Shown here in pieces: positions 8,126 to 64,000 of a stretch of DNA of 64,000 bases. The translations under genes and the position numbers were made by a program. Within the stretch, counting starts at the first letter, position 1. Every line of letters begins with the position of its first letter. The DNA comes from Thelephora terrestris. Taxonomy: Eukaryota > Basidiomycota > Agaricomycetes > Thelephorales > Thelephoraceae. Location of the stretch: NCBI GenBank assembly GCA_015956445.1, contig WIUZ02000010.1, forward strand, positions 434,001 through 498,000. The letters run 5' to 3'. The notes under the pieces were generated by a model that searched no databases, was not told where the DNA came from, and saw nothing but the letters and a program-made list of their open reading frames with translations.

Positions 8126-8164
<39 letters not shown>

Positions 8165-32075: not shown

Positions 32076-33134
32076 ATCCAGGACTGGCCAGTCCCGACAA
32101 ATGTTTCAGAGGTTCGAGCTTTTCTGGGAACCTGTGGAGTCCTTTGAATCTTCATCAAGAACTACACTCTCGTCGCAAGGCCCCTCATCCAGCTAACACG
32201 GAAAGACGAACCCTTCGAAATCGGACCCCCGCAGTTGGCAGCTATCGAGAACCTCAAGGCCGCGATCGTAAACTCACCAGCTCTACGCCCTATCGACTAC
32301 GAGTCGCAACGCCCAGTCATCCTAGCCGTCGACTCCTGCATGAACGGTGTTGGTTTCATTCTCCTTCAGGTCGGTGAAGACGGAAAGCGCTACCCCAGTC
32401 GATTCGGGTCCATCACGTTCAACGATCGCGAGTCGCGATACTCTCAGGCCAAGCTCGAGCTCTTCGGGCTGTTTCGCGCACTCAAGCAGACGCAGATTTA
32501 CACCATCGGCGTGAAGAAACTCACTGTGGAAATGGATGCCAAGTTTATCAAGGGGATGCTCAATAACCCTACGCTCCATCCCAACGATGCCGTGAACCGA
32601 TGGATATCCGCCATCCTGCTCTTTGACTTCGAACTCGTCCACGTCCCCGCTGACAAGCACACCAGAGCTGACGGTCTCTCCCGTCGTCCTCGCGCCCCTG
32701 ATGATCCGCCTCCCGACGATCCGGACGAACTAGAAGAGTGGATAGACCTCGGCGCAGGATTCTTCCTTAAAGTCAACACACCTCGATCCCCCCTAGACCC
32801 AGCACCTTCTATATTATTCGCCATTGAACCCGAATCAGCTCTGCATGCCTCCCCTCCTTCCCCTCGACCCTCTCCAGAACCTCCCGACGACTCTGCCGCT
32901 CCGTCGCGATCCTCTTCACCGGATCCTGAGACTGATGTCGCGATCCCCCAGTCCCCCAAAGGCCTCCGTCGCGAAGAACGGCTGGTCGTGATACAGAAGT
33001 TCCTGTCTGACCTGGAGCGCCCTCCAGACCTCTCTGATCACGACTACCGGCAGTTCATTCGCCAAGCCACAGACTACTTCCTCGTTGGCAACAAGCTGTT
33101 CCGGAAGAATCGCAAGGGTAGCCCACAGCTCGTC
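32076..33134 (+). pseudogene. pol: gypsy RT end and RNase H region (fossil)
   Basis: Resumes at the right end of the Plavaka insertion with the RT thumb block (VPTNVSEVRAFLGTCG) and continues into RNase H (VILAVDSCMNGVGFILLQV; ESRYSQAKLELFGLFRALK; HVPADKHTRADGLSRRP). The sequence then enters a Pro/Ser/Asp-rich spacer and meets the 3.7 kb palindrome at 33135. Recognised by family resemblance. Confidence 0.75.
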
Positions 33135-34249
33135 AGTAGTCCTTATTAAAAACATTAATGTTTTAGGAGTTTTTGTCGCAAATTTGAATGATTTTTCTCA
33201 TGAGTTTTTGAATGGCCTGAGGGGGGATATTTTACTCATAAAGTTTCAATGGAAATTATGGGGGGGACTGGGACCCAGCTTACTGGGCACTGGTGCTCCC
33301 AATTAGGCAGGTGCCGACAGTGTGGGTGGCCCGGGGGAGTGGATTGCTTATATAATAAAAATTGAAAAATTCAGGGAAATTCCAGAAAATTCTGAAAAAA
33401 TTCCCACGGGTGTCAGGGAGGGCAGAAAATAAAAAATGGACTGTGGGAATTTCCGATCAAAATTTCCCAAAAAGGAAATTTTTGATGGCTTACATAAGCA
33501 ACTCAAAATGATTTTGATATTGAATTTCCTTTTTGGGAAATTTTGATGGCTGACATAAGCAGGTCATGTGACTGAAAAAAGTGGGTGTTGCTTATGTAAT
33601 CAGGTCATGTGACCGACCAAAAAAGGAAAGTTTTGATGGCTTACATAAGCGTCTCAAAAATGCTTTTGGAGGGGTCTTTCCTAAAAAGGAAATTTTGATG
33701 GCTTACATAAGCGGCTCAAAAACGCTTTTTGCAAAAATTACCAAAAAAGGAAATTTCCTTTTTAGGAAAGAGCTTCCAAAAAAGGAAATTTTGATGGCTT
33801 ACATAAGCAACTCAAAAATTATTTTGGCAAAAATTACCAAAAAAGGAAATTTCCTAAAAAGGAAATTATATGCTAGAAAATTCGGAAAAATGCCAGAAAA
33901 ATCCTAAAAAATACTGAAAAAATTCCCACACGTCTAGAAAGTGCCCAAAATGGTAAATTATTCCCAGAAATATTCAAAAAATTGTTTTTCTGGCTGGAAA
34001 AATCAGGAAAAAATTCCAAAAAAATTCCAAAAATTCCAGAGTATAGATAAATATTTTATAAAAATTATTTCAATTTTTTTGGTCCATTGAATAGCCCATA
34101 ATTTCAATATTAATATATTTTTTGCCCAAAAAATTCAGAAAAATCCCAAAAAAATTGATAAAAATAGGGAAATACAAATATATCTGTAATATTCATTATA
34201 TCATGAAGTACAGACCAGTTTGTGGTCATAAACTAGCCCTAAACCTAGT

Positions 34250-34510
34250 CCTGGACCTAACCTAACCTAACCTAGCCTAACCCTAACCCTAACCCTAACC
34301 CTAACCTAGACCTAAACCTACACCTAACCTAAACCTAAACCTAACCTAACCTAACCTAACCTAAAACTAACCTAACCTAACCTAACCTAACCTAACCTAA
34401 CCCCAAACCTAACCTGCCCTAAACCCAGCCTGCCCCAAACCTATCCTAGCACCAAACCTAAACCTAAACCTAAACCTAAACCTAAACCTAAACCTAAACC
34501 TAACCTGCCC
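34250..34510. repeat. telomere-like tract, left arm of palindrome 2
   Basis: Mostly CCTAA units with a run of perfect CCCTAA units (ccctaaccctaaccctaa near 34282) and degenerate CCTAAA units. TTAGGG is the usual telomere repeat of filamentous fungi. Confidence 0.85.
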
Positions 34511-34548
34511 TAAACCTAACTCTGACCTGGCCTAGTTCAGCCTTATCT

Positions 34549-34579
<31 letters not shown>

Positions 34580-35629
34580 TCTTATTCTGTCTTACCTACC
34601 CTAGACCCAACCTAACCTGACATAGTCAACTTAACCTGGTCCACCACAGATCACCCAACCTAACCTAAAGTGGTCTACCTGACCTAGACTGATGCAACTT
34701 GAGTTTATTCTTCTAATCAGCTGTTATCTTATCTGGCCTTAATCTAAATACCGTAGCTAACCAACATCTAACCCAACCTCACCTGGCTCACCAGCAAGTA
34801 GCTGGGCTACAGGAACACACCCTGAGCTGCACCATCCCATATCCTGTATCCAACTGTCACTCAAACACAAGAACTGTGGTGGACCTACAAGTTAGTGGAC
34901 CCATAAGCCCACAGACCCACAAGTATAGGCTGTTCACTCAGTGGAAACATCTGTTATCCACCCTCACCCACGCACCACCCTCACTCTGTGTTCTGTGCCA
35001 GACTGCAACTTCACCACAGCTTATGTTCAGCCACCTGGCTGAACCTGCAAGTCAGGGTGATAGACTACTGGTTATGGATCCATGGATTTGTAGACCTGAT
35101 TGTACATGGGTTTAGCTAGGTGGCTGAACATGAGCTGTGGTGAAGTTGCAGTCTGGCACAGAACACAGAGTGAGGGTGGTGCGTGGGTGAGGGTGGATAA
35201 CAGATGTTTCCACTGAGTGAACAGCCTATACTTGTGGGTCTGTGGGCTTATGGGTCCACTAACTTGTAGGTCCACCACAATTCTTGTGTTTGAGTGACAG
35301 TTGGATACAGGATATGGGATAGTGCAGCTCAGGGTGTGTTCCTGTAGCGCAGTTACTTGCTGGTGAGCCAGGTGAGGTTGGGTTAAATGTTGGTTAGCTA
35401 GGGTATTTAGATTAAGGCCAGATAAGATAACAGCTGATTAGAAGAGATAAACTCAAGCTGCATCAGTCTGGGTCAGGTGGACCACTTTAGGTTAGGTTGG
35501 GTGATCTGTGGTGGACTAGGTTAAGTTGGCTATGTCAGGTTAGGTTTGGTCTAGGGTAGGTAAGACAGGATAAGATAGATAAGATAAGATAAGATAAGAT
35601 AAGACCGAACTAGGCCAGGTCAGAGTTAG

Positions 35630-35945
35630 GTTTAGGGCAGGTTAGGTTTAGGTTTAGGTTTAGTGCTAGGTTAGGTTTAGGGCAGGCTGGGTTTAGAGCA
35701 GGTTAGGTTTGGGGTTAGGTTAGGTTAGGTTAGGTTAGGTTTAGGTTAGGTTAGGTTTAGGTTAGGTTTAGGTTAGGTTTAGGTTAGGTTTAGGTTAGGT
35801 TTAGGTTGGGTTTAGGTTAGGTTTAGGGTTAGGGTTAGGGTTAGGTTAGGTTAGGTTAGGTTTAGGTTAGGTTAGGTGTAGGTTTAGGTGTAGGTTAGGG
35901 TTAGGGTTAGGGTTAGGGTTAGGCTAGGTTAGGTTAGGTTAGGTC
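35630..35945. repeat. telomere-like tract, right arm of palindrome 2
   Basis: Inverse of the left tract: TTAGG units with runs of TTAGGG near 35828 and 35897. It is longer than its partner, so the tracts have changed copy number independently. Confidence 0.85.
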
Positions 35946-36857
35946 CAGGACTAGGTTTAGGGCTGGTTTATGACCACAAACTGGTCTTTACTTCATGGTG
36001 TAATGAATGTTATAGATATATTTGTATTTTCCTATTTTTATTTTTATTTTTTGGGCAAAAAATACATTAATATTGGAATTATGGGCTATTCAATGGACCA
36101 AAATTTTTTTAAAAAATAGGTAAAATATTTATCTATATTCTGGAATTTTTGGGAATTTTTTCGGATTTTTTCCTGATTTTATCCAGCCAGAAAAACAATT
36201 TTTTGGATATTTCTGGAATTGATTTACCATTTTGGGCACTTTCTAGACCTGTGGGAATTTTTTCGGTATTTTTTAGGATTTTTCTGGCATTTTTCCGAAT
36301 TTTCTAGCACATAATTTCCTTTTTAGGAAATTTCCTTTTTTGGTAATTTTTGCCAAAATCATTTCTGAGTTGCTTATGTAAGCCATCAAAATTTCCTTTT
36401 TTGGTAATCCATCAAATATTTCCTAAAAAGGAAATTCCTTTTTAGGAAAGACCCCTTCAAACGCATTTTTGAGACGCTTATGTAAGCCATCAAAACTTTC
36501 CTTTTTTGGTCGATCACATGACCTGCTTACATAACCAAAACCCACTTTTTCCAGTCACATGACCTGCTTATATCAGCCATCAAAATTTCCCTTTTGGGAA
36601 AATTTTGATCGGAAATTCCCACAGTCTATTTTTCATTATATAAGCGATCCACTCTCCCGGGTCATCCACACCATCGGCACCTGCCTAATTGGGAACACCA
36701 GTGCCCGGTCAGCTGGGTCCTAGTCCCCCCCATAATTTTGATTAATACTCTATGAGTAAAATTTGCCCCCTTGGGGGCATTGAGGAACTCATGAGAAAAA
36801 TCATTCACTTTTAAGACAAAACATCACAAAGTCTTAATCATTTTAATAAGTACTACT

Positions 36858-37582
36858 GTCTGTTGATCGAAGCCACCCGTGTTCCAATTTCCCCGTCTTT
36901 ACACTCACCCATCCCTTTCCATTGCGCGGTCATACTACTACTTACTTCTTAAGTATTTTAGTGGTACCTTATTTGCCTCTACCTACCCGCTTTGTGAAAC
37001 AATTGGAGTTCCACCCCTCGTACCTCGTGTGACGCAAGATCTACCCGCTATTCCAGCAGGTAAGTATTGTCCCTGCCTACAACGCAGCACACCTTGAAAA
37101 GTTCCCCGCGGTGGCTCCTCTCTCCCATCCTCTTCCCACACTCTCTGTTATCTTCTTGCGCGGCGCAACGAACTCTAAAAAATGTTCCCCGCGATCCCCG
37201 TTCCTAGTTCCCCATTTATTTTATTTTTCCTCCACACTCCCTCTCCGTCCTCACGATCGGCGCCTTCTCCTTATGTCGCGACCTCATTTAAACTTCCTTT
37301 CCTTCCGATCGCATTTTTCCTTCCTCTGACATATCTCCCTCTTCCATTTAAAATTTCCCACGACTGCTACCCATCATTTCACCCTTTTATTTCTCCTTTG
37401 TTTGTTCTTCCCCGCATTCCTTTCAACTGCTTGTTGCCTCCCTCCCTCCCTCTCTCGTCGTTTTCTTTCCTGGGATTTTCTTCTTCCCTTTCCGTCTTTT
37501 CTATTTTTTTAATTTTTTTAATTTTCCTTATGGTGGGTACCTGTGGTACAGGTGAAATATAATTTTTTATATCTTCCCTACC
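36858..37582. other. pyrimidine-rich stretch, no gene seen
   Basis: Strong C/T bias on the plus strand produces open frames with no protein-like content. A donor-like ggtaagtat lies near 37058. It could be the upstream region of the small-protein cluster. Confidence 0.4.
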
Positions 37583-37904
37583 ATGGCCCACGCATTCTCC
37601 TTTGTAGACAGTATTCAACGGTCACTCTAGTTACTCTCTGTTTTTCCTTTCACTGACACATCCAATTTCTTATTCCCCATTTTATTTTGTGCCCCGTCTA
37701 TTCCCTCCGACACCTCCTTCTGATGATCACCCTCTTCCAATTCACTGGATACATCAAATTCTATTTTTGTTTTATCACACCACATTCATTGTCCATCCCC
37801 TTCGCAATCCTCCACTCCGTCTCGAAAGCTACCATAGCGATGCTGAATTGGTAGAATTAATCTACAATAGATTAGAAATAGAATGTGGGACCTGCGTCAG
37901 CTAG
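37583..37904 (+). pseudogene. small-protein family member 1 (fragmentary)
   Basis: A possible first exon starts at the ATG at 37583 (MAHAFSFVDSIQR). The only clear family block is at the end: TTFIVHPLRNPPLRLESYHS and LVELIYNRLE, matching IVHPLLNPPLRL and FVDLINDRL of the member at 39760-40179. The middle cannot be followed, so this is probably a decayed or misread copy. Confidence 0.4.
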
Positions 37905-38368
37905 ATTTACTTTTTCCTATAACATGGTGCTCTGTAATCATGACATGATTAGTTGGATGACATCTCTTTTGTCCTATACCAACCCCTCCCCTCATTCCCA
38001 CGCATAGAATAATGTCACGTCTAAAGCCATTCAATTCAGGTTGTATATGGAAATGGCCGCCCGATCATCAAACCTTATCACAACGCGGAGCGCCCAGCAA
38101 TGACATAACCTGCAGACGGCGACCTCAGCTCTCCTTCAAGACCCAACCGCCTCCTCTCCTTTACCCTTTCACCATCTCTCATCAGCCTGCCAACCTTACT
38201 CCAACACATTACTGTGCTATTCACTCTCCCTCATATTCACCAAGAAAAGCCCTGTTGGTACGTGTTAAATCCAACTCTGACGTTACCCTCCTTTCGACAA
38301 CCTTCGTTTCAAGCAGAATAACCTTGCCACCAACCCTCCCTTCCTTCACTTCAAATCTTTTCCTCACC

Positions 38369-38656
38369 ATGTCCCCTAAGACCCTCCGTCGTTCCCAATC
38401 ATCCCTTGCCTTCCCCACCAACGCCGACTTCAAAACAGAAAAGGAACTCCTCAAATACTACTACAAAAGTAGGGACGCCCGCCTTGCCCTACTCCAGGCT
38501 GTGCGACAAGAACAAGGCAACATGGAGGCCATCGTCTATTTTAATCACTATCTCCTCTATTCGCCCATCACAATCTACCCCGATACGACCGAAGACTACG
38601 TAAAGGAGCTATTTGAATACCAGCTGTCTATACTTGACCCATGGAAGTATATCTAG
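38369..38656 (+). CDS. small-protein family member 2
   Basis: Intronless frame of 95 residues starting MSPKTLRRSQSSLAFPTN. It shows the family layout: KELLKYYYKSRDARLALLQ, then a gap, then MEAIVYFNHYLLYSPITIYP and YVKELFEYQLSIL, the places where other members have ALEYL...SARKLI, YIVHPL..PL.L and FVDLINDRL. Rich in Tyr and Leu. No signal peptide or known domain recognised. Function unknown. Confidence 0.5.
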   Translation: MSPKTLRRSQSSLAFPTNADFKTEKELLKYYYKSRDARLALLQAVRQEQGNMEAIVYFNHYLLYSPITIYPDTTEDYVKELFEYQLSILDPWKYI

Positions 38657-38918
38657 AAGCATTAGTTGGTAGCCCTCCTCCACCTACATAGAAAACCGTT
38701 CCTCCATTAAATCAATGCGTATATCCCACCATGTTAATGCCATCAAAGAACGATCAAATTTAAAATGGAGGAACAATGAGTTGTCATCATGATGACTCAA
38801 TATATCGGCCAACCACGAACGCCACGTCACAATGAAACAACCTCTCACAACTTTCGTCTTTGTGGCCGCCTTTCATATTCCAACTCAGCGCACCCAGAAA
38901 ACCTACACATCGGAAATC

Positions 38919-39354
38919 ATGGGAGTAAAATTGGTTTACTACGTCCAAGATCCCAAAACACATCAATGGGAACTAGCGTAAGCTCTACGCTATGCACAAC
39001 ATTTTGACACTCTGACCTCAAATCAGCCCCAGTATCAACCCTACCCCACCAAGCTCAGACGAGTACAACCGATACGACACCGTACCTCTCATCGATTACA
39101 TGGGACAGGGCTGGAAGACTGATGTTGAAGCCCTGGAATACTTAAAGACCAAGAAGAGCGCCCGAAAACTGATCTCACGTCAAGCTTGGACCTACATGTA
39201 TCAAGGAGCAGGAGTAATGTACATCGTCCACCCCCTTTTTGAAGTACCTCTAGTCCTTGGCCCCCATGACAGCGAGGAAAGTATATTACGCAAGGTTACT
39301 ATACGGCTGGATACTTTAAAGAGAGTAGCAGACAAGTACTCTGGGAACGTTTAA
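38919..39354 (+). CDS. small-protein family member 3
   Basis: Two exons: 38919-38977 (MGVKLVYYVQDPKTHQWELA) and 39027-39354, joined over a 49-bp GTAAGC...CAG intron that keeps the frame. The second exon carries YDTVPLIDYMGQGWKTDVEA, LEYLKTKKSARKLI, VMYIVHPLFEVPLVLG and a charged helix to the stop. About 128 residues, no known domain. The DP-x-THQW word of exon 1 recurs in the member at 39760, and the IVHPL block recurs in most members. There is a distant similarity of layout to DUF6699 (a short hydrophobic strand, then A-x2-LL, then PLL-x-PL), which I hold only weakly. Confidence 0.65.
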
Positions 39355-39439
39355 TTACCCTATGTACGGTATTCCCTACCTTGCCACCCCTATGTTTACG
39401 ACGCCCCATTATTCCCTTCCCCTTTGTTTGTTCAACCAA

Positions 39440-39642
39440 GGAATAAACAGACTTTTCATCATTCATACATTTCATCATCTCATCATGGGACTTCCGATGA
39501 TGACACCCTTCTCCAGTTCACCAAGCCATCAAACTTTATTTTAGTATATCACAATGTTTCAATCGAGACCCTGGTGCCTCCTTCTTTTCGGCACCGGATC
39601 ATTACTTATTACGTATATGGCTTCCTTCTTCCCCACGTTTAA
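39440..39642 (+). pseudogene. small-protein family fragment
   Basis: A short frame containing DDTLLQFTKPSNFILVYHNV, whose DNA resembles the stretch just before the IVHPL block at 37720-37790. Probably a decayed duplicate. No start or full family block. Confidence 0.3.
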
Positions 39643-39759
39643 TATTTGTCATTCGCATTGCTTCACCAGCATGTTCCTCTCGCTTTCCTTTCTCTTTCTC
39701 CCTGCCCCTGGTTCTTATTCCCCCCCCCCCAGAACACTGCTTACTCTACGGTGTACCCC

Positions 39760-40179
39760 ATGGACACGCAACACTGCTTCATTTTAGACCCCTGCACCCA
39801 CCAATGGAGAAGCACGTACGCTCTTTTTCTTACGTATTTTTTATCAAGATTTTGACACGCGCTCAGCCTTTCCTGGGAAATGCCCTGGAAGGTACACCAC
39901 CACCCCTATTTCTATGAAGAAATCCTTGTAGTCGACTACATGGGATTAAACTGGGCAACCCCCGAAGACGTCCTTGAATACCTCCAGCAAAACCAGAGCG
40001 CCAGGCGCCTCCTCCATAAAATATCCGAAGACATCCTGCTCACAGGATGGGACACTACCTACATTGTCCACCCCCTCCTTAACCCACCATTACGCCTTGA
40101 TATCTACCTCAGTGATGATGAGTTCGTAGATTTAATTAACGATAGGCTAGCCACCGAACAACGAGTCCGCGCTGGTTAG
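39760..40179 (+). CDS. small-protein family member 4
   Basis: Two exons: 39760-39815 (MDTQHCFILDPCTHQWRS) and 39867-40179, with a 51-bp GTACGC...CAG intron that keeps the frame. The second exon reads MPWKVHHHPYFYEEILVVDY, MGLNWATPEDVLEYLQQNQ, SARRLLHKISEDI, TTYIVHPLLNPPLRL and DDEFVDLINDRLATE. About 122 residues, the best preserved copy beside member 3, which shares the intron position. No known function; probably soluble, mixed alpha/beta. Confidence 0.65.
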
Positions 40180-41666
40180 GAATTATGCACATGTACTTCG
40201 CCTCACCTAACCCACCATGTTGATGACATCGTGAGAAAAAGCTCACCCAAATAAGGAAAGACGGACACACCAACTGTTATAACCCAAATCGGCGTCTCAA
40301 CATGATTGGACCCACAGTGTCAGGGCCACTCTACCCCAACAACTACCAGTGCACTGAGCCGACTCCGCAGAGTACTCACTAGTCCAACTAGCTTGTGAGA
40401 GAACGATCACGTCTCTATTCTTCCGGTAGGTTGTCCGAGGTCACTACAAGTCAGGTCGAAATCCTAAAGAGAAACCCAACCTAAACCGTACTTCGTTCGG
40501 TTTAACAGACAAGGGTTTATCCCTACAACAGGATTGATGACTCCACCAGGTGATCGACTGGACGCTCGAGGTGTTCTATAAGGTGAACGCTGAGGTTCTA
40601 TAGTTACGAGGCGCAGTTGACGCGCAGAGCGGGAGGGAGAGCAGATGGGGGGATGTCTTGGATCAAACAAGAAACTCTGACTTGTCCTTAACTGCAACTG
40701 GGCTGAGAAGGGCAGAGGATTTCCTGAGGTAACAAAACTAAGGTACTACGATACAGCCACAGTTGCTACTTATACTAAAGGAGTGGCCATGACGTCAATA
40801 CCCTAATATACCCTTATCAAGTCCGAACAAAGGGAGATAAGGAGTGTGTGAACGCTAAGTAAGGGAAGCGAACTAATATGACGCATGGGAGAATAAAGGA
40901 CAAAGGGCCTTACTAGCGTGTGAAGGATTGCATAAAAGATAAGGAATGTCCGCATGAAACATAGGGGTAAAGATAACACTAGTCCTAAAAGAAAGAGGGG
41001 CATGGGGTCATGAAAGTTCGTACCTGGGGATCACACCCAAGGGCTAGGTGAGAACCTTCTTGGATGCTTCCTTTGGAGAGGCCAAAGATAGAGACCATAC
41101 AGCATCACGGACTAGTGGTAACCTTATCGTGCGTCCGAACATGAGGAGCGAGGGCCTAGACTCATGGGACATAAGGGATTACAGATTCGCCGGCGTTTCA
41201 CGCTAACGGCTACTCCACATGCGCTGGGCTAACCAGAAGAATCCTAAGGCAATGCTTCCGAATAGCGGCGAGTCCTTCCTCCGGTTAGGAGACTGTGATG
41301 TGACTGTCCACGTGTGTGATCAGGGTCCAGGGTTGATCGTAATCGTAAAGTCATGAGGGGTCGTAAAAGGGGTTCGTGATGTCATAAAAGGGGTCATCAG
41401 GGTCTTGAGACCTATTTTTAGTGCGCGCGCGTTCTAGGCGTTCCGGAACGAAGTTCTTCCAAGGCCGTCCCGCGGGCCGAGGTGTCAGCTTGATGTAGTA
41501 AGCCAACAATGATGGTACAAGGGCGGAAGTTGATGTGACCCGGACCAATGAGGTTCGTCGAGGTAGGTCACGTGAAGGATCACCGATCTAGGCTATAAGA
41601 AGGACGTCTTCTTGGAGCCATCCTTGATCAGCAACACCAGTAACTTCCCCATCATCTTACCAAAAC
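40180..41666. other. 1.5 kb without a gene
   Basis: No credible open frame. A TGTTATAACCC word at 40278 resembles LTR starts in mushroom genomes, and a TATA-like word (ctataagaa) lies at about 41593, 75 bp before the coiled-coil gene. I could not find a matching second copy, so an LTR is only a possibility. Confidence 0.4.
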
Positions 41667-43268
41667 ATGTCCTTCCCTAACAACCATACCTACAAAGTTG
41701 CCAATGGCATCTCCACCATCTCCCGTATCGATCGTCGTGCCGCCGCCCGCAAGACCTACGCCAACGCAGCTGGAACTCCCTATACCACGGATGATCAGGT
41801 ATGGGGGAGAGCTAGGGCTTCTTGTATTAGCGCTAACTCCTTCCTCTAGGTAGAGGTTACGTTCTTTTGGGCGTTGATGTCCAGCTAACGGCTTCTAGAT
41901 CTTGGAGATCGTCAAGGAGGTGGACGCCGAACGTCTCAGGGAGACGATCCCTCACTTGATGGGGTTGACCTGGGACGATGAGCTCTGGGTCCGGTCCATG
42001 ATTGCCGAGAAGGTGATCTTCCAGATGAGGGGTAGGTTCGGGGAGTTGGAGCACCCGATCAAGAAGGAGCTCTGGTACACCCTTCAGAGGGGTATCTATG
42101 ATCAGGACCTGTTGGAGCACGGAGCAACTGTTCCTCGGGCTGTCCGCCATGCCACTGCCGCTACCTCGTTATTGTGGTCGCTCGTTCGGGAGGGAGAGAG
42201 CCGGGTAGGTTCTCTGTTTGAATATTCGAGTATGACTCTCGACTAATCAAACTGCCTAGGTTGAACGTTTAGAGCGCGAGGTGAGGGAGGCGAAGGCAGA
42301 CGTCCTTCGTTTGTCGGCGGAGGGTCTTCGGATGAAGGAGACTCTGGCCGCCTTCCAGCAGGGAACGAATGAGGCGTTGGAGGCGATGGTTGCCAACCAT
42401 CAAGAGTTGATCGCCGGGCTGAAGGTCAGGGATAACAACATCAAGGGGGCGTTGGCCAGGAGGGATGAAAAGGTGCTTTCAGCCTTTGCAGGTTTATGCA
42501 ATGACTGAGAGGTTCTCCTAGACTGAACAGCTCGAGGATGTGGTCGCCGTGTTGACTGCGCAGGTCGCTTCCTTACAGGATAAGACCTGTAACTGCAAGG
42601 AGGGTCCGGTGTTGGTTGGTGAGGGGACAGCCGACGTTCCGTTCGAACTGGAGTACGCCGACGAGGTGGTACTTCCATCGCCTAACCCGTCGTCCTATGC
42701 GACACCTCCGGTAGAGAACACGGTTCCCGTCCCGACTCCAGCTCCGGCTTCCACGTTGGCCGAGTCCGACAAGGAGAACTGTCGGCGCTGCCCGTTGCAG
42801 CCGATCAGTCAGCTGGTCAAGATCGAGGACGAGGTCATGGATGTCGACCGGGCCGAAGATGTTCCGAAGGCCATAGAGGTACGTCCGGTGACAACAGGGC
42901 AGCGTTGCAAACGCTCTCGACGCCGTGTTGCTCATCGCATGGCTCTTTCGGCTAACCCATACCCGCGTCCAGTTGAGTCGGATGGTGACCAGTCTGGTCG
43001 AGATAGGGGACGAGAGTTCCGCTATCGGGTCAACCGTCCCTACCGACAGGTCGAGTCGGAGATCCAGCTTCGCCACCAGCTTCGACTCGCAAGAGAGGAT
43101 CCCACCCAGGGGTGTGATGAGGGAGACGGAGGGTCGCTCATCGACTACGTCGATAGTGCTGCCGAGCAGTCACCCGGTGATGGAGATGTGGGACCAGGTG
43201 TTCCAAAGTTCGGTGACATCTGGGAGGCTGATCGGTCCGCTCGAAGGCATCTCTTCTTATCGGCTTGA
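41667..43268 (+). CDS. uncharacterised coiled-coil protein
   Basis: Four exons: 41667-41798, 41899-42204, 42260-42472 and 42522-43268, all with GT-AG ends and kept frame (about 465 residues). Starts MSFPNNHTYKVANGISTISR. Exon 2 is helical (ILEIVKEVDAERLRETIPHL, MGLTWDDELWVRSMI). Exon 3 is a heptad-rich coiled coil (VERLEREVREAKADVLRLSA) continuing into exon 4 (TEQLEDVVAVLTAQVASLQD). The rest is Pro-rich and charged, with arginine clusters (CKRSRRRVAHR). No enzymatic motif. The other plus frame over the last 300 bp is also protein-like to 43404 (LVVQLSAEDGDAMFGEVL), so the C-terminus may differ through another intron or a frame change. A TATA-like box stands 75 bp upstream. A gag-like origin cannot be excluded. 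Confidence 0.65.
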
Positions 43269-43611
43269 ACTAGTCGTTCAGCTGAGTGCCGAAGATGGTG
43301 ACGCCATGTTCGGAGAGGTCCTTGCGAGGAGGGGCCAGCATTACGATCTCCGGGATGGACAGGTGATGATTACGAGGCCTGCCGTAGATAGAGTCGACTT
43401 TTGAGGACGTTGTATAAGCATTGTATAGCCAGTTGTTTCGTATTGCCGAGAATGTATGCGCGTTTGTGTCTTTGAATGATGGGTGTGAAGGATAAGGAGT
43501 GTGAAGCATTCAAAACATAAGAAGTGGTAAGAAGAGTTCGAAGAAGGAGCGTGTTATAAAAAGTTTAAAAATACCATGTTCCTGACACACAGACACAAAC
43601 AAATTGACGTG

Positions 43612-44007
43612 ATGGCAACCGAGTCTGCCAGCACATCGCCTTCAACAGCAAAACCATCTCACTATCACATCCCACCTCTCTTCCACATGCAAATCATCCA
43701 CTACCACGTAAATCCACAAGGACTAGATACGTATTGGACAACCGCCCTCGAGCTCTACTGCTATCTATATACCAACAAAAGCGAACGCACCCGTTTACGA
43801 ACAATGGTCGACCAGTTAGGAAACCACAATAACCGAATATTCATCATTCATCATCGCTGCGCTCCCTGGACCATATGCCTTGTGATGGGACAAACCGACG
43901 AGTCATTTGTACAGCACATTGAATGTCTCCTCCAAGGCATAGGAATTGTAATCCCTCAAGACCATTCCATTCAAGGTATTTCGGCCACTATATGTGCATT
44001 ATCATAA
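43612..44007 (+). CDS. small-protein family member 5
   Basis: Intronless frame of 131 residues from the ATG at 43612 (MATESASTSPSTAKPSHYHI); an in-frame ATG also lies at 43576. It carries the family pattern without the intron: MQIIHYHVNPQGLDTYWTTA aligns with the LVYYVQDPKTHQWELA exon, then LELYCYLYTNKSERTRLRTM, then RIFIIHHRCAPWTICLVMG and FVQHIECLLQGIGI. Lies 73 bp upstream of the second LTR copy. Function unknown. Confidence 0.55.
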   Translation: MATESASTSPSTAKPSHYHIPPLFHMQIIHYHVNPQGLDTYWTTALELYCYLYTNKSERTRLRTMVDQLGNHNNRIFIIHHRCAPWTICLVMGQTDESFVQHIECLLQGIGIVIPQDHSIQGISATICALS

Positions 44008-44080
44008 ATAAAGTCAGTATTGTTCTAGACTAGTTGGGATAATTGCGATCAGGGATGATCGTTCAAAAGTTCCCTGCGGA

Positions 44081-45348
44081 TGTCGGACATGAGAACAACC
44101 ATGTCATTATTTATGATAATTCACCACAACAGGATTAGATTAGATAAGATAAGGACAAGAAACTCATGGAATGTTACAGAATGTTTAGGAACACCCTGGA
44201 ATGTGCCGGAACATCCTGGAACTTGCCGGAATGTTCTAGAAGGTGACAGAACGTCACACCTTTTGTGACAGTTAGTCACACTTGTGACATGAGTCACACG
44301 TAGAAATAGTTTAGTTTACCATAGAACAAGATGGAAGCAGACGGAATGTTCTAGAATAATCTTAGTTGTAAAAGTATATAAGAAGCTCAACCACAGTTCT
44401 AAGCAAAAAGGATCCTCCCCCCTCCCTTTCACCCCCCCAACCTTTTACCTCAGGAATTCCCCCTAAAGGAATTTCACCCTACCCTTTTACCCCTATCCTT
44501 TCACCTTATCCCTTTCACCTCTACCCCTTTACACCCCTTATCCTTAGAACTGATTGGAAGAGTGATTTTCAGTAATCATATTCCAGTTCAGCCCATACCT
44601 TTGTGAGAAGTATATCTAAGTTTGATTGACCTTAGTACGCTTGACTCTGAGACGTTTGAGAGTATCCTGATCTCTGTAATTGCTGAAGGCAGTGCCCTTC
44701 AGGCAGAGAGTACTCCAACTCAGACTAGTGTTTGACTAAGCTTCACCCAAATTAGTGAAGTACCACATAGGCCCCAACATACCACATTTTCAGAAGTTCC
44801 CAGAAGTTTAACCCGTTTCAGATTAGCATTACGTTGCTCACCTCACGTTTCATTTACCCGACAGATATCAGCAGTTATAGGACATTCCCTAGGAGTTACT
44901 GAACATATCAGCACAGCCATCCACTGAACATATCAGCATAGCCACAGGCGTAATTGCACAGCCGCAGCACAGCCTCCTTACACAGCCCGTTACATAGCCC
45001 GTTTACATAGCCTGTTACACAGCCCATTGCACAGCCTTTTGCACAGCCCATTACACAGCCTTCTTCACAGCCCCAGAACACAGCCCAAAGACACAGTTAC
45101 AGTACACAGCCTCAAGAACACAGCCTCGATCACGCAAATCCTTGAGGATCCATCACCACATTCTCGATCATCAGTAAAGATCAGGCACCCACACTTATAA
45201 AGATCAGCAACCCCCTTTTTCATTCCAAAACAGGTGTTTGACCAGTAGGAACGATAGTACAACAAGGTTAAGGACAGTTGAACCCCTCTGAACAATACTG
45301 AAGGACAAAAGACAATCCTTCAGCGAACTCATCAGGTCTCGGAGCCGG
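44081..45348 (+). repeat. second copy of the gypsy LTR plus 14 bp of primer-binding-like site
   Basis: 44081-45334 matches 8955-10208 in length (1254 bp) and, by eye, in every base checked. The next 14 bases (GGTCTCGGAGCCGG) also match; then both copies diverge. There is no polypurine tract on its left and no flanking target repeat, so it is not a simple 3' LTR or a simple solo LTR. It abuts the 3' side of a host gene at 45437. Confidence 0.75.
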
Positions 45349-45436
45349 AAAGTGCAAAACCCCGCCCACCCTGTGGAGTTGATAGTCGGGATAACTGACT
45401 TCTCAACCAGCCAACTTAGTTGTTAACGCTTAGCTT

Positions 45437-46146
45437 CTAAGTAAACCAAGAAGGACTAGTAAGAGTTCTTATAGACCTCTTCACTACAACCCCAGCTAAC
45501 TCGACACCGTACAAAAGGAATAAGGCTGCTGGAACGTGTTTGGTAAGCGAACAGTCACGCCAAACTACACGGAAGATCATCTCACCCAGACTTAGCACGT
45601 CCTTTTTCGACCAGGGCTTTGCGGGCTCCCTAAACAACCGGCTGACCCTCTCCAGGTGGTGTTTTTCCTTCTCCCTTCTCTTCTGCTCCGCCCGGCTCCT
45701 CTTCGTCTGTTCTTTTTCCGCTTTCTTCCCAACCCCAGGGACACCGTTTATTTGGCGGAGCGCCGATTGTGGGTTCACAACCGCCAGCCTCATCTCAAGC
45801 TCATCTGCAACTGCAAGATTCGATCAGCTCGCCGCGTCACGTCAAGCTGGGGGGCCGAAATGCTTACGCCTTGAGAGTGCGGCCACCGTCGTATCCTTCT
45901 CATTCAATCCACTCTCCGGAATGGAAGTCAGCTCTACTGGGAGAATCGCCTGCAGTAAGCCTTCTAGATATTTCTCCACATTCCGGGAGCGTTTTCCTTC
46001 TCCGGCCTTCGTGTCACGGAGTGGCTGTTGCCAGGTCGACGAATTTGTGAAATGATGAGCGAAAACACAGTAAAAAAAGCCGCTTACTGATCGTTTGAGG
46101 TCTTCTTTAACAAATTTGTCTATTCTGGCAAGAGCCATCTCAGGTT
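45437..46146 (-). pseudogene. 3' part of a host gene split by copia (possible bHLH regulator)
   Basis: Three exons on the minus strand. The first begins at the copia target site (EPEMALARIDKFVKEDLKRS) and ends at GTAAGCGG. The second reads TKAGEGKRSRNVEKYLEGLL, LPVELTSIPESGLNEKD. The third reads MRLAVVNPQSALRQINGVPG, KRSRAEQKRREKEKHHLERV, SRLFREPAKPWSKKDVLSLG and runs to a stop at 45437. The basic block followed by a hydrophobic helix and a Lys-started second helix resembles a bHLH domain of the basidiomycete RxEQKRR type, pointing to a nuclear DNA-binding role; this is inference. The 5' part lies at 55505-56475. Confidence 0.55.
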
Positions 46147-46479
46147 CTAACTGTTCGATAATCTAGCAGAGATAGATGAGAACATTGTCCTCAGCAGAGA
46201 TCAAGATAACAGCTGATGTATTCAGTACCTAGCAGAGATAGATGAGAACGTTGCTAGGGACCTGGTAAGTACAGAGAAAGAATAATACAGAAGGAAAGAA
46301 CGTACTCCTCAGCAGAGATCAAGATAACACACAGGGTTCAGCTATCTTTTCTCCATGGGTCATGGACCATACATCGTGACAATTCTCCATGGGTCATGGG
46401 CCATGCAACGTTGTACAACGTGTTGTACAACCCATGACCCATGGAGAAAAGATACCATTGTACAACCCATGACCCATGG

Positions 46480-47540
46480 GTAATGGAATAGTATCCGTTA
46501 CCCATGCCCCATGGGTTGTACAACACTATCCCTTCCCCATGCCTCATGGGTTGTACAATGCTATCCTTTCCCCATGGGGCATGGGTTGTACAACGCTATC
46601 CAATTCCCATGCCCCATGGGTTGTACAATGCTATCCATTTCCCATGCCCCATGGGTTGTACAATGCTATCTGTTCCCCATGGGTCATGGGTTGTACAACG
46701 CTATCCGATTCCCATGCCCCATGGGTTGTACAACGCTATCCGATTCCCATGCCCCATGGGTTGTACAACGCTATCCGATTCCCATGCCCCATGGGTTGTA
46801 CAACGCTATCCGTTGCCCATGGGGCATGGGTTGTACAACGCTATCCGTTCCCCATGGGGCATGGGTTGTACAACGCTATCCATTCTCCATGCCCCATGGG
46901 TTGTACAACGCTATCCTTTCTCCATGGGGCATGGGTTGTACAACACTATCCATTCTCCATGGGGCATGGGTTGTACAACACTATCCAGTTCCCATGGGTC
47001 ATGGGTTGTACAACCCTATCCAATTCCCATGCTCCATGGGTTGTACAACCCTATCTGTTCCCCATGGGGCATGGATTGTACAACGCTATCCGTTCCCCAT
47101 GGGTCATGGGTTGTACAACACTATCCATTTCCCATGGGGCATGGGTTGTACAACGCTATCTGTTCCCCATGGGGCATGGGTTGTACAACACTATCCAATT
47201 CCCATGGCCCATGGGTTGTACAATGCTATCCATTTTCCATGCCCCATGGGTTGTACAACACTATCCTTTCCCCATGGGGCATGGGTTGTACAACACTACC
47301 CATTCTCCATGCCCCATGGGTTGTACAACACTATCCATTCTCCATGGTGCATGGGTTGTACAACACTATCTATTTTCCATGCCCCATGGGTTGTACAATG
47401 CTATCCAATTCCCATGCCCCATGGGTTGTACATCACTATCCAATTCCCATGCACCATGGGTTGTACAACAGCATCTTGTGCCCATGGGGCATCAGTTGCA
47501 GAATGGTGTCCTTTCTCCATGTCCCATGGATTATATTACT
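46480..47540. repeat. 35-bp satellite array, left arm
   Basis: About 30 units built around CCCATGNNNCATGGG + TTGTACAAC + a variable CTATCC spacer. Both CCCATG...CATGGG and GTTGTACAAC are themselves palindromes. Because 35 is not a multiple of three and the unit has no stop, all three plus-strand frames stay open; the long frames here are not genes. Confidence 0.9.
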
Positions 47541-47789
47541 ATTCCAGGAAAGGAGATACTTTATAAATCAACCATTAGCTGTGTGAATTTGAAAAAATTA
47601 GACTCTGTTTGTATGCATGATAGACCATATATCAGTTTGTGGCTCTAACCTAATGGAAACTAAACTTAACCTGATAATAGCCACAACCTAATCCTCAATC
47701 TAACCTGAGCCAATGTAAACTTGACCCATGAACCTAAGCCTAACCTAATCCTAAACCTGGTCTAATCCCAAATCTAACCCTAACCTGAC

Positions 47790-47850
47790 CTGACCTAACC
47801 TAACCTAACCTAACCTAACCTAACCTAACCTAACCTATACCTAACCTAAC
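47790..47850. repeat. CCTAA tract, left arm of palindrome 3
   Basis: About ten CCTAA units within a longer degenerate zone from about 47650. Its mirror is at 48490-48550. Confidence 0.8.
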
Positions 47851-48489
47851 CTGGTATGGGCAAACCTAACCTACCTATCATGATCTGTTTCAGCCTAATG
47901 TCATGTATGCCAGCCAAGACTAACTTCACCCAGTTGCAAACATATGACTTGGGTCACAGGACCATAAAGCAAACTGCAGTCCCCTCACTCTGTGCCCAAC
48001 CATCCCATAAGCCCACAGACGCACATATATATCATCAGCAACCCAGCATCATGCTTATCACCCATGTTCAACCACAAACCATTCTCACCCTTTGTTCTGT
48101 GCCATCTCACAGACAAACCACAACTCAAGTTCATCCACCTCCTTGGGCCCACAAGCAAGTGGCCTACAAACATATGGTTTATAGACTTATAACATCTTCC
48201 ACACAAGGATTAATATGGGTGGGTGAGCTAGAGTTATGGTTAGGCTTTGAGATAGCACAGAACAAAGGGTGAGAGTGGTTTGTGGTTGAACATGGGTGAT
48301 AAGCATGATGCTGGGTTGCTGATGATATATGTGCGTCTGTGGGCTTATGGGATGGTTGGGCACAGAGTGAGGGGACTGCAGTTTGCTTTATGGTCCTGTG
48401 ACCCAAGTCATATGTTTGCAACTGGGTGAAGTTAGTCTTGGCTGGCATACATGACATTAGGCTGAAACAGATCATGATAGGTAGGTTAG

Positions 48490-48550
48490 GTTTGCCCATA
48501 CCAGGTTAGGTTAGGTATAGGTTAGGTTAGGTTAGGTTAGGTTAGGTCAG
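48490..48550. repeat. TTAGG tract, right arm of palindrome 3
   Basis: Inverse of 47790-47850. The tracts point toward the centre in the same way as those of palindrome 2. Confidence 0.8.
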
Positions 48551-48799
48551 GTCAGGTTAGGGTTAGATTTGGGATTAGACCAGGTTTAGGATTAGGTTAG
48601 GCTTAGGTTCATGGGTCAAGTTTACATTGGCTCAGGTTAGATTGAGGATTAGGTTGTGGCTATTATCAGGTTAAGTTTAGTTTCCATTAGGTTAGAGCCA
48701 CAAACTGATATATGGTCTATCATGCATACAAACAGAGTCTAATTTTTTCAAATTCACACAGCTAATGGTTGATTTATAAAGTATCTCCTTTCCTGGAAT

Positions 48800-50500
48800 A
48801 GTAATATAATCCATGGGACATGGAGAAAGGACACCATTCTGCAACTGATGCCCCATGGGCACAAGATGCTGTTGTACAACCCATGGTGCATGGGAATTGG
48901 ATAGTGATGTACAACCCATGGGGCATGGGAATTGGATAGCATTGTACAACCCATGGGGCATGGAGAATGGGTAGTGTTGTACAACCCATGCCCCATGGGG
49001 AAAGGATAGTGTTGTACAACCCATGGGGCATGGAAAATGGATAGCATTGTACAACCCATGGGCCATGGGAATTGGATAGTGTTGTACAACCCATGCCCCA
49101 TGGGGAACAGATAGCGTTGTACAACCCATGCCCCATGGGAAATGGATAGTGTTGTATAACCCATGACCCATGGGGAACGGATAGCGTTGTACAATCCATG
49201 CCCCATGGGGAACAGATAGGGTTGTACAACCCATGGAGCATGGGAATTGGATAGGGTTGTACAACCCATGACCCATGGGAACTGGATAGTGTTGTACAAC
49301 CCATGCCCCATGGAGAATGGATAGTGTTGTACAACCCATGACCCATGGGAAATGGATAGTGTTGTACAACCCATGCCCCATGGAGAATGGATAGTGTTGT
49401 ACAACCCATGCCCCATGGAGAATGGATAGTGTTGTACAATCCATGACCCATGGGGAACAGATAGTGTTGTACAACCCATGGGGCATGGGAATTGGATAGC
49501 GTTGTACAACCCATGGGGCATGGGAAATGGATAGTGTTGTACAACCCATGACCCATGGGAAATGGATAGCGTTGTACAACCCATGCCCCATGGAGAAAGG
49601 ATAGCGTTGTACAACCCATGCCCCATGGAGAATGGATAGCGTTGTACAACCCATGACCCATGGGGAACAGATAGCGTTGTACAACCCATGGGGCATGGGA
49701 ATTGGATAGCGTTGTACAACCCATGCCCCATGGGGAAAGGATAGCATTGTACAACCCATGAGGCATGGGGAACGGATAGTGTTGTACAACCCATGGGGCA
49801 TGGGAATTGGATAGCGTTGTACAACCCATGACCCATGGGGAACAGATAGTGTTGTACAACCCATGGGGCATGGAGAATGGGTAGTGTTGTACAACCCATG
49901 CCCCATGGGGAAAGGATAGTGTTGTACAACCCATGCCCCATGGGAAACGGATAGTGTTGTACAACCCATGGGGCATGGGAAATGGATAGCGTTGTACAAC
50001 CCATGACCCATGGGGAACAGATAGCGTTGTACAACCCATGACCCATGGGGAATGGATAGCGTTGTACAACCCATGAGGCATGGGGAACGGATAGTGTTGT
50101 ACAATCCATGCCCCATGGGGAACAGATAGCGTTGTACAACCCATGGGGCATGGGAATTGGATAGGGTTGTACAACCCATGACCCATGGGAACTGGATAGT
50201 GTTGTACAACCCATGCCCCATGGAGAATGGATAGTGTTGTACAACCCATGACCCATGGAGAATGGATAGCGTTGTACAACCCATGACCCATGGGGAACAG
50301 ATAGTGTTGTACAACCCATGGGGCATGGGAATTGGATAGCGTTGTACAACCCATGCCCCATGGGGAAAGGATAGCATTGTACAACCCATGAGGCATGGGG
50401 AAGGGATAGTGTTGTACAACCCATGGGGCATGGGCAACAGATACTATTCCATTACCCATGGGTCATGGGTTGTACAATGGTATCTTTTCTCCATGGGTCA
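48800..50500. repeat. 35-bp satellite array, right arm
   Basis: Inverse of the left array and longer, about 47 units. The unit variants are shuffled relative to the left arm, so the arms have exchanged or amplified units since they formed. Confidence 0.9.
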
Positions 50501-50777
50501 TGGGTTGTACAACGCGTTGTACAACATTGCATGGCCCATGACCCATAGAGAATTGTCACGATGTATGGTCCATGACCCATGGAGAAAAGATAGCTGAAGG
50601 GGCTCGATAACAGCTGAGGAGATGAAAAAACGGGCGAGCGAACCGTTAAGGAAATTGTGGCTGACGAACAAATAGGGACAAATAAGAGAAGGTAAACTAC
50701 GAGAACGCAATATTTCAACACTCCCTCTCGTTCGAGTATTTGTAAGTCATAAGCCAGGAAGAAAGAAGGAAGGGTAT

Positions 50778-55197: not shown

Positions 55198-55213
55198 AGC
55201 CGGGCTCATAACC
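55198..55213 (-). promoter_or_regulatory. copia primer-binding site (initiator-tRNA half-molecule type)
   Basis: Directly after the 5' LTR the minus strand reads GGTTATGAGCCCGGC. It contains the complement of the initiator methionine tRNA anticodon loop (CTCAT flanked by its stem). Copia of Drosophila and Ty5 are known to prime from such a cut tRNA half. Confidence 0.65.
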
Positions 55214-55499
55214 TGTTCGATAATCTAGCAGAGATAGATGAGAACATTGTCCTCAGCAGAGATCAAGATAACAGCTGATGTATTCAGTACCTAGCAGAGA
55301 TAGATGAGAACGTTGCTAGGGACCTGGTAAGTACAGAGAAAGAATAATACAGAAGGAAAGAACGTACTCCTCAGCAGAGATCAAGATAACAGCTGAGGAG
55401 ACGAAAAAACGGGTGAGCGAACCATTAAGGAAATTGTGGCTGACGAACAAATAGGGACAAATAAGAGAAGGTAAACTACGAGAACGCAATATTTCAACA
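55214..55499 (-). repeat. copia 5' LTR
   Basis: 286 bp, with TG...CA ends on the minus strand (TGTT...AACA). Unbroken reference for the split 3' LTR. Confidence 0.9.
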
Positions 55500-55504
55500 C
55501 TAAC

Positions 55505-62583: not shown

Positions 62584-64000
62584 CTAATCCTTCAATCCAA
62601 ACGCATCCGGCAACATATTCCATGCCTTCTTTCTCACTTCTACGTGCCCGGCTTCCCACCCCTTGACACAGACCTCGCAAAACCCATCACGGTGACCTTC
62701 GATGCTGCTCGACGACAGAACCTGCAAGACCTTCGTCCCAGACCGAGAAGAATCCGTGATTCGATCGATGACCTTCTGATGTGCATCAGAAACTTTTAAA
62801 CCTGTTGCGTTGCGTGAGTGACAATTTGGCGAGGAACACGTTTGGGAGATCTTTGGCCCCAGGACCAGACGGTATGTCTCGTTGAGCTCCAGTTTTTGAA
62901 GCGCCACGAGGCCTTTGATCGCAGACTCGAGGACCTCGGGAGAGAGAGTGGCCCTCTGAGATAGGCTTCTGTCCATCAGTGAACTGACACCCCTTCTAGC
63001 CGCCATGTAGTACGCCACCGGTAGCGCGGATGTGAGCCCCTGCTGAACAAATAGGTTGAGGACCTCGTTCGGATGTGGGGTTGGTCCACTGAACACCCTC
63101 TCCCCAATTGACTTGGTAGGCGTGACTCCCTCAAACGTCTCCGGGTACGCATCACGAACAACCTCGATTAGTTGAGGTCGTACAGCAGGCATCTCGTACT
63201 TTGCCGTGATTCGGAGGAGGGATGAGAACGTGTTGAAATCCGGGACTTTGTTTCGCTCAGGGTACCTGCAGACTTGCGATCAACAGAGGAATGATAGATA
63301 TAGAGATAACAGAAGCATACCCAGGAAGATATATTACCTTGAGAAGTGTGGCGAAATCTGTTGCCGTGTCGGAGGACAGGATACTAGGGCAACCGTTGGG
63401 CGATTCGGCAGCGGCGAGATTGGCCCGAACGAACATTTGACGGAGGGCAGGGGAATGGAAAGAAAGGATGCTTGTGTGTACACGGAAGAGGGTGTTCCCA
63501 CATAAAACTTCCACGTTTCCATCCGCGAAGTTGAACGTGCTATGGGGGGTAATGGTTGTGAGGTCGACGGGAGACTCATCGTCGGAAACATCTGCAACGG
63601 TGAAGTCGGACAGAGTGGCAATGCTAGTGGACGGAGACAGGGTGACGGGGGATCTGGAGATCATCTCTGTCTCTGGGGTGGCAATCGAATCGAGCGGAGG
63701 GGGCCCAAAAGTCTGAGATTCGAGGTCTACGTCGGGCAGCCCCAGAGATGTGGCGACGGGGGTTGCACTGGGATCTTCCTGGCCCATGTTGGTTTGCTCT
63801 GGTCTGCTGGTTGTGAATACGGGTGGGGGCGGTGGCAGGCCCTCCCAACCACGTTCACGTAGTCGAAATACCTCCTGCAATTTATCTTAGTTCCTAGCAA
63901 GCTCCCTTCATAGAGTTCGCCCACCTGTATCTCCTCCCAACGCCAGCTGTTGAGATTGCTGTAGTCCCTGATAAGCTTAAAGCAGCGGTCGACCACTAAA
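62584..64000 (-). CDS. MIF4G-like/BTB-POZ fusion protein, copy D (5' end beyond window)
   Basis: Minus-strand gene entering from the right edge and stopping at 62584. Visible parts: end of the MIF4G-like region (RCFKLIRDYSN), an intron (GTGGGCGAAC...TTGCAG, near 63927-63877), linker (RGWEGLPPPPPVFTTS), BTB domain (DGNVEVLCGNTLFRVHTS, ATDFATLLKVIYLPG), an intron near 63335-63268, and the tail (EMPAVRPQLIEVVRDAYPE, TFEGVTPTKSIGERVF) with Cys pairs CSSPNC and CEVC, ending FGLKD. Its sequence is very close to copy A (introns included), so the two are a recent duplication about 62 kb apart in the same orientation. Confidence 0.8.

Follow-up and report, generated by a model that had tools for sequence, protein, structure and literature searches.

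Foldback elements, KDZ transposons and the chimeric copies of Galileo are already known. Galileo of Drosophila is a P-superfamily element with a THAP-domain transposase; the ciliate telomere-bearing elements TBE/Tec are transposons with telomere-like repeats at the element ends; miniature inverted-repeat transposable elements (MITEs) are short, below about 800 bp, and have no coding capacity; and long palindromes are unstable sequences. Galileo is described with long inverted repeats that hold internal tandem repeats, 7-bp target-site duplications and chimeric copies with unlike arms and mismatched flanks, for which its authors also weigh assembly error (PMC3573991), while the Tm1 Mutator/Foldback elements of root-knot nematodes have composite inverted repeats of variable length and form several groups (PMC3169594). 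Among the KDZ (Kyakuja-Dileera-Zisupton) transposons, Kyakuja of Agaricomycotina has 7-bp duplications and CA..TG ends with no inverted repeats (PMC12730594), and KDZ1-3 of Cryptococcus have inverted repeats of 139-241 bp and duplications of 4-8 bp (PMC12810828). Here we analysed a 64-kb stretch of Thelephora terrestris, the window (C2:434001-498000, in an assembly of 40.6 Mb in 60 contigs), which carries two giant palindromes, P2 and P3, related to two further types in the assembly, P4 and P5. These palindromes are DNA transposons with sharply defined ends, numerous copies scattered over the assembly, 7-bp target-site duplications and empty sites, and the cores of P2, P3 and P4 are homologous. 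We consider it likely that they make up at least three families (with P5 as a variant) of non-autonomous foldback cut-and-paste transposons, with a KDZ mover for P2 and a shared, inherited core.

Like the TBE/Tec elements, these palindromes hold telomere-like repeats, which in P2 and P3, however, lie deep inside, beside the centre. With Galileo and Foldback of Drosophila they have in common very long, repetitive inverted repeats that contain tandem repeats and leave little or no unique sequence at the centre, copies consisting of arms only, 7-bp duplications and chimeras, whereas the accessible part of the Galileo paper mentions no telomere-like core (PMC3573991) and concerns a different taxon. 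Tm1 is similar in that several groups of elements have composite inverted repeats whose length varies, but it is reported with 9-bp duplications, a Mutator transposase and, in place of CCTAA, histone-hairpin motifs (PMC3169594). The likeness to KDZ transposons lies in a KDZ transposase within an element with P2-type ends, in 7-bp duplications as in Kyakuja and, for P2 and that element, in Kyakuja-like CA..TG termini; the presence of inverted repeats and the duplication length, within the reported 4-8-bp range, recall KDZ1-3. The inverted repeats of that element are 1,283 bp long, in contrast to none in Kyakuja and 139-241 bp in KDZ1-3, and P2 and P3 of the window differ from KDZ transposons as palindromes with a CCTAA core and no transposase gene, P3 and P4 lacking CA..TG on both sides. 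A previous sequence-only reading of the window was aware of no described element with this layout. Galileo is a precedent for it; new are the CCTAA core common to elements with different ends and the gene-less palindrome tied to KDZ ends, neither of which we found described in the openly accessible literature.

The layout of the two window palindromes is as follows.

33134-36858, no strand: P2 palindromic element, 3,725 bp, termini CAGTAGT...ACTACTG, without target-site duplication at this copy
33134-34216, forward: P2 left arm, subfamily a (CAGTAGTCCTT), AT-rich, with repeats of AAAAAGGAAATTTTGATGGCTTAC
34217-34225, forward: P2 left-half anchor AGTTTGTGG
34238-34520, forward: P2 left-half tract of CCTAA/CCTAAA/CCCTAA
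34775-35045, forward: P2 left half-core, the region homologous to the P3 and P4 cores
35046-35108, no strand: asymmetric loop separating the P2 half-cores
35109-35379, reverse: P2 right half-core
35625-35961, reverse: P2 right-half TTAGG tract
35974-35982, reverse: P2 right-half anchor
35983-36858, reverse: P2 right arm, subfamily b (CAGTAGTACTT), making this copy an a/b chimera
46323-46329, no strand: P3 left 7-bp target-site duplication, GATAACA
46330-50605, no strand: P3 palindromic element, 4,276 bp, termini CACAGGG-TTCAGCTA and GAGCCCC-TTCAGCTA
46466-47529, forward: P3 left array of ~35-bp units, CATGG/TTGTACAAC
47634-47642, forward: P3 left-half anchor AGTTTGTGG
47731-47852, forward: P3 left-half CCTAA tract
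47921-48140, forward: P3 left half-core
48217-48434, reverse: P3 right half-core
48503-48609, reverse: P3 right-half TTAGG tract
48698-48706, reverse: P3 right-half anchor
48870-50434, reverse: P3 right array (35-bp units), which exceeds the left one in length by ~500 bp
50606-50612, no strand: P3 right 7-bp target-site duplication, GATAACA
55213-55501, forward: P3 empty site (uninterrupted target copy), matching 46151-46329 and 50606-50722 with an overlap of exactly 7 bp

The two giant palindromes with unrelated arms that the sequence-only reading had proposed are indeed present. The left and right halves of P2 share 85% identity in their inner 1.5 kb and 73% in the outer 0.45 kb, the P3 arms (1,356 nt) are 90% identical to each other, and comparison of P2 arms with P3 arms gave zero BLAST matches at E ≤ 1. 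The ends it had given for P3 (46330-50605) hold, and those of P2 (33135-36857) lie one base further out on each side. Its order of anchor, CCTAA tract and core in each half agrees with the landmark positions: the anchor AGTTTGTGG begins at 34217 in P2 and 47634 in P3, with its mirror form CCACAAACT at 35974 and 48698, and CCCATAAGCCCACAGAC begins at 34900 in P2 and 48004 in P3, with mirror copies at 35238 and 48335, respectively. TTCTGTGCCA follows at 34991 and 48095, 91 bp beyond CCCATAAGCCCACAGAC in both elements, as had been noted, with the qualification that the exact word occurs in 3 of the 4 palindrome halves (the P3 right half is off by one base) and once more at 55549. All matches in the window to CCTAACCTAA (22/22) and TTAGGTTAGG (25/25) fall inside P2 or P3.

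Target-site duplications are most regular in P3, whose ends differ in the outer 7 bases (CACAGGG and GAGCCCC) and then both continue with TTCAGCTA. Exact 7-bp duplications flank 10 of 11 P3 copies, namely 8 of 9 fetched pairs, the copy at C3:209-212 kb and the window copy (GATAACA), and the remaining copy matches at 6 of 7 bases; 20 stretches had been fetched for P3 ends, L076 being left out as its partner end was absent from the set. The one P4 copy examined has CCCATCT on both sides. For P2, 6 of the 21 loci with both ends (the other 7 of 28 did not have both) carry duplications, five of 7 bp and one of 8 bp. Empty sites were found for P3 and P2. The stretch at 55213-55501 is unbroken, and the flanks of the window P3 overlap there by exactly the 7 bases of GATAACA (this comparison of the window with itself listed 81 of 342 matches, leaving out those inside the P3 arrays and those below 80 nt); likewise, locus L028 is an empty site for the P2 copy of L010, with a flank overlap of 7 bp.

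The palindromes are dispersed through the assembly. P2 termini number 121 (59 + 62, at ≤1 mismatch) and P3/P4 termini 173 (84 + 89, at ≤3 mismatches), the control patterns, reversed in the case of P2, giving 0 + 0 for each. Among the 100 of 121 P2 ends that were listed, 43 neighbouring convergent pairs were found, 28 of them at 3.2-4.2 kb; with these commonest lengths, P2 does not have the shortness of MITEs. Across the families, elements mostly measure 3-4.5 kb. Searches with the cores gave mirrored partners at 39 of 40 loci for P2 (best 40 of 107 candidates scored), at 40 of 40 for P3 (best 40 of 78) and, with all 30 candidates scored for P4, at 29 loci, besides one 56-base fragment (C23:2093791). 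The sole P2-core match among the 40 without a mirrored partner, C2:864959-865134, is possibly a half palindrome or a solo core. The core is thus not confined to the window, recurring at dozens of mirrored loci across the assembly, and it occurs with the differing arms and ends of P2, P3 and P4. If the ends pair, the 121 P2 ends and 91 P3/P4/P5-like GAGCCC ends imply well over 100 elements in the 40-Mb assembly.

Homology of the cores extends beyond the landmark words and lies, for P2 and P3, outside simple repeats. The post-tract cores of P2 and P3 align with a score of 464, against a mean of 273.6 (standard deviation 19.7, maximum 338) for 400 dinucleotide shuffles, so that the similarity does not fall to chance outside those words. 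From tract to loop, z values were 9.7 for P2-P3, 9.0 for P2-P4 and 5.7 for P3-P4, and for no pair did any of the 400 shuffles attain the observed score. Trained without P3 and P4, a profile built from P2 cores matched P4 at 2.3e-16 and P3 at 1.9e-10; the P3-core profile matched P2 at 4.1e-9 and P4 weakly at 0.013, and the P4-core profile matched P2 at 3e-12 and P3 weakly at about 0.027. The model built for further core families was applied to the loci read and matches its own families by construction.

The arms and ends, in turn, point to a modular composition. P2 splits into subfamilies a and b by its ends (the subfamily and core comparison covers matches above 100 nt; the P2mid comparison covers, among the matches listed, P2mid matches of at least 250 nt and others above 70 nt). 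P4, copies of which adjoin P2 copies at L015 and L018, matches the outer end of P3 in its outer 116 bp (75%, E 2.8e-18) and the repeats of the P2 arm in its inner arm (E 2e-6), and it also has the tract and core; P4 links P2 and P3, with P3-like ends, P2-like inner arms and a related core. The variant P5 (L088) combines the tract with an end and a short array of units, both of P3 type, and with an inner stretch containing AAAAATAGGAAA, the sequence read being too short for a comparison of its core. One terminus type is common to P3, P4 and P5, and another is found in P2. Given the mixed make-up of P4 and P5, three modules recur in differing combinations: termini with CATGG arrays (P3, P4, P5), AAAAAGGAAA-type inner arms (P2, P4 and weakly P5), and tract plus core (P2, P3, P4). 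Of the modular foldback family with a telomere-like heart and swapped termini that had been suggested, the shared heart with different termini is supported; that the tract is telomeric here, that the heart is functional and in which direction swapping went are not established.

Within P2 copies the two arms resemble each other more than chance pairing predicts. The comparison used loci in which both halves are complete, 16 of 21 for the inner and 13 of 21 for the outer halves. Left-right divergence within a copy averaged 0.69%, whereas shuffling the partners gave a mean of 2.8% and never, in 5000 shuffles, a value as low. The inner halves had the same length in 8 of the 16 copies (0.56 copies on average after shuffling), and, counting ties, the copy's own partner was the nearest sequence for 13 of the 16 inner halves and 12 of the 13 outer ones. 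Gaps aside, mismatches between inner halves are found no more than 24 bases from the loop; L009, L021 and the window copy are the exceptions. Since copy-specific changes are mirrored within copies, these data suggest that arm-to-arm gene conversion or hairpin-templated repair maintains the likeness of the long P2 arms; a uniform polishing error is less likely, as fixed differences near the loop persist.

The window P2 shows the Foldback/Galileo-type trait of a chimeric copy with unlike arms and mismatched flanks. Its left arm belongs to subfamily a and its right arm to subfamily b; the left flank is a repeat with 14 other copies (94-97%), the right flank a different repeat with 3 other copies (80-99%), and the two flanks occur together in none of 28 flank matches. 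On this composition, the copy would be either a recombinant or an assembly mis-join. At L016, a P2 arm and at least 414 bp of flank are mirrored at 100% around a 4.4-kb centre (1-2057 and 6434-8490), which may be a fresh inverted duplication or an assembly or read artefact.

A candidate for the P2 mover was found at C3:1044747-1057121 (L083/L084), a 12,375-bp element with the P2 terminus CAGTAGTACTTATTAAAA at both ends, a GCCGTGA 7-bp duplication and 1,283-bp inverted repeats that are 100% identical. Its outer 155 bp are 81% identical to P2a and its outer 118 bp 82% to P2b, and an open reading frame (ORF) within it matches the KDZ transposase domain (E 1.1e-34). The KDZ model has 125 matches in the Thelephora terrestris genome and none in the 14 control genomes. 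No match is listed on contig C2, hence none in the window P2 or P3, and P2 is at most a non-autonomous partner. CA..TG termini are found in P2 and the KDZ element, P3 and P4 having one CACAGG end and one GAGCCC end; 7-bp duplications as in Kyakuja occur in P3 (10/11), P4 (1/1), the KDZ element (1/1) and P2 (5/21, plus one of 8 bp), and with its 1,283-bp inverted repeats the KDZ element departs from the absence of such repeats reported for Kyakuja. Because this genome has a KDZ element that agrees with P2 in its ends and in duplication length, P2 is probably the non-autonomous, foldback-type partner of such a transposon. The KDZ element also has an ORF with a weak match to a fungal protein kinase model (E 5.1e-5, below cut-off), and it holds a block of short tandem repeats. 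No autonomous partner of P3/P4 was found by searching the assembly for GAGCCCNTTCAGC ends, a pattern that excludes ends with A at the last place. Three of its matches do not look like P3/P4/P5 ends: those at C27:46398 (L086) and C56:2183421 (L087) show no element on reading and were discarded as chance matches, and C8:108848 was left unread. L049 and L050 were rejected as autonomous elements; they are P2 copies with 3.3-kb inserts (at about 2.5-5.9 kb of these loci), bounded by TGTCAGG (LTR-like, that is, resembling long terminal repeats), 90% alike, lying inside the P2 tract/core region and perhaps a retroelement.

In the mechanism that we favour, a transposase supplied in trans, for P2 most likely of the KDZ superfamily, would bind the termini, excise the element and insert it with a 7-bp stagger. 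The families would diversify by ectopic recombination between copies, in which termini and arms are replaced while the CCTAA-tract core is inherited, and the window P2 could be such a recombinant or else an assembly join. A number of observations weigh against this account. Of the 21 P2 copies with both ends, 15 show no duplication of 5-12 bp, and at L022 (3073-6755), a copy without duplication, the flanks lie 202 bp apart, with no overlap, in the uninterrupted relative (L010:8140-8400); CCCCATT stands at both breakpoints there, so the copy may represent an insertion with target loss or a target already carrying the deletion. Assembly mis-joins at palindromes could explain part of the missing P2 duplications. 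Contig C56 stops at its right end (L038) inside a P2 subfamily-b-like arm, and palindromes may therefore break this assembly. Ectopic flank swapping was set aside as a general cause of the missing duplications, as clear answers came from L010 (7-bp overlap) and L022 (202-bp gap) alone. Moreover, the KDZ element shares just ~155 terminal bases with P2, its inner inverted repeat has no further copy in the assembly, both candidates being the two ends of the element itself, and its gene may not be whole, the match to domain positions 50-103 having an in-frame stop in an analysis without intron models. The GAGCCCNTTCAGC search gave 94 matches (reversed control 0 + 4), 91 of which look like P3/P4/P5 ends. 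The P3 and P4 cores recognise each other weakly by profile (E 0.013-0.028). Mirroring is not general either, as the arrays and tracts of the window P3 are unequal (by ~500 bp and 15 bp, left versus right). Finally, L051-L053 are P2 copies with both ends, no detectable core, lengths all different and no duplication, so that the core is dispensable for having ends.

The alternative that survives best is that the termini come from another superfamily with 7-bp duplications, P/Galileo-like or hAT7, and that the KDZ element gained P2-like ends by recombination. Galileo combines 7-bp duplications with very long inverted repeats and chimeric copies (PMC3573991), hAT7 is also reported to make 7-bp duplications (PMC12730594), and the CACAGG/GAGCCC ends of P3 and P4 are not plain CA..TG. 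We nevertheless regard it as unlikely, since the sole gene-bearing element found with P2 ends and a duplication encodes KDZ (P-element, THAP and hAT models were not searched) and Kyakuja itself is reported with 7-bp duplications and CA..TG ends (PMC12730594).

Returning to foldback families with an inherited core, the default view of the tract and core is that of a passenger from a common ancestor. Core-bearing P2 copies are numerous compared with the three coreless ones, which hints at a role for the core, although the copies are too few for a test. Quite improbable, in our estimate, is a stronger version, in which tract and core are a selfish, transferable heart, carried among elements with different termini and hence different transposases, that enables very long palindromes to persist and spread; it might do so, for example, by recruiting host telomere-binding proteins to protect or replicate the hairpin. 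A very doubtful possibility is that the core and tracts derive from a captured or domesticated telomere-capped linear palindrome (5'-CCCTAA...TTAGGG-3', minichromosome-like), taken up by several transposons, whose tract recruits telomere-binding proteins. In line with it, tract orientation is constant in the P2, P3, P4 and P5 halves read, with the C-rich strand leading when read from the left, an arrangement that linear chromosomes show at their two ends; the CCTAACCTAA runs of the window all lie inside the palindromes; and the genome has just 12 sites with exact (TTAGGG)5, all away from contig ends, of which 7 are in P2 loci, 3 form a mirrored set on C60 and 2 are on C8. Against it, the tract is degenerate and mostly made of 5-mers, and no free core was demonstrated, the lone candidates being the partnerless C2:864959 match and the 56-base P4 fragment at C23:2093791. 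In addition, none of the 20 contig ends read has telomere repeats, and this assembly thus does not reveal the host telomere repeat. The degenerate CCTAA-like sequence of L034, at the right end of C23, was rejected, having no core match at E ≤ 0.01 nor at E ≤ 10. An Rfam scan of 33000-50700 gave no telomerase RNA match, and six microRNA-type hairpin matches far below gathering scores were discarded as hairpin noise. An artefact, with inverted duplications from assembly or missed adapters and low-complexity core similarity, might account for the mirrored flank of L016 or the contig that stops inside an arm, and single copies may be of this kind, but for the families as a whole it is refuted and extremely improbable, because it could not give dozens of loci the same termini along with empty sites and 7-bp duplications that are specific to each copy, while P2 retains fixed arm differences near the loop and the core similarity lies outside simple repeats and above dinucleotide shuffles.

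The window holds other repeats. At 15494-16718 lies a third palindrome of 1,225 bp, 98% self-inverted, with termini CACTGGGGACAAAC and ACA on both sides, which looks like a CACTA-type (3-bp duplication) non-autonomous palindrome and has no CCTAA tract and no core match. Two direct copies of 1,268 bp, 100% identical and 35 kb apart (8955-10222 and 44081-45348), contain CACAGCCC tandem repeats and are perhaps the terminal repeats of a retroelement. Repeated blocks of 1-1.7 kb with 70-89% identity occupy both window ends (1-6724 and 62669-63994), perhaps as a multigene or retroelement family.

The association of P2 with KDZ-type ends would link foldback elements to the KDZ superfamily, a link that we did not find in the openly accessible literature. 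With a telomere-like centre common to elements whose ends differ, it can be tested whether a centre of this kind stabilises hairpins or mobilises them.

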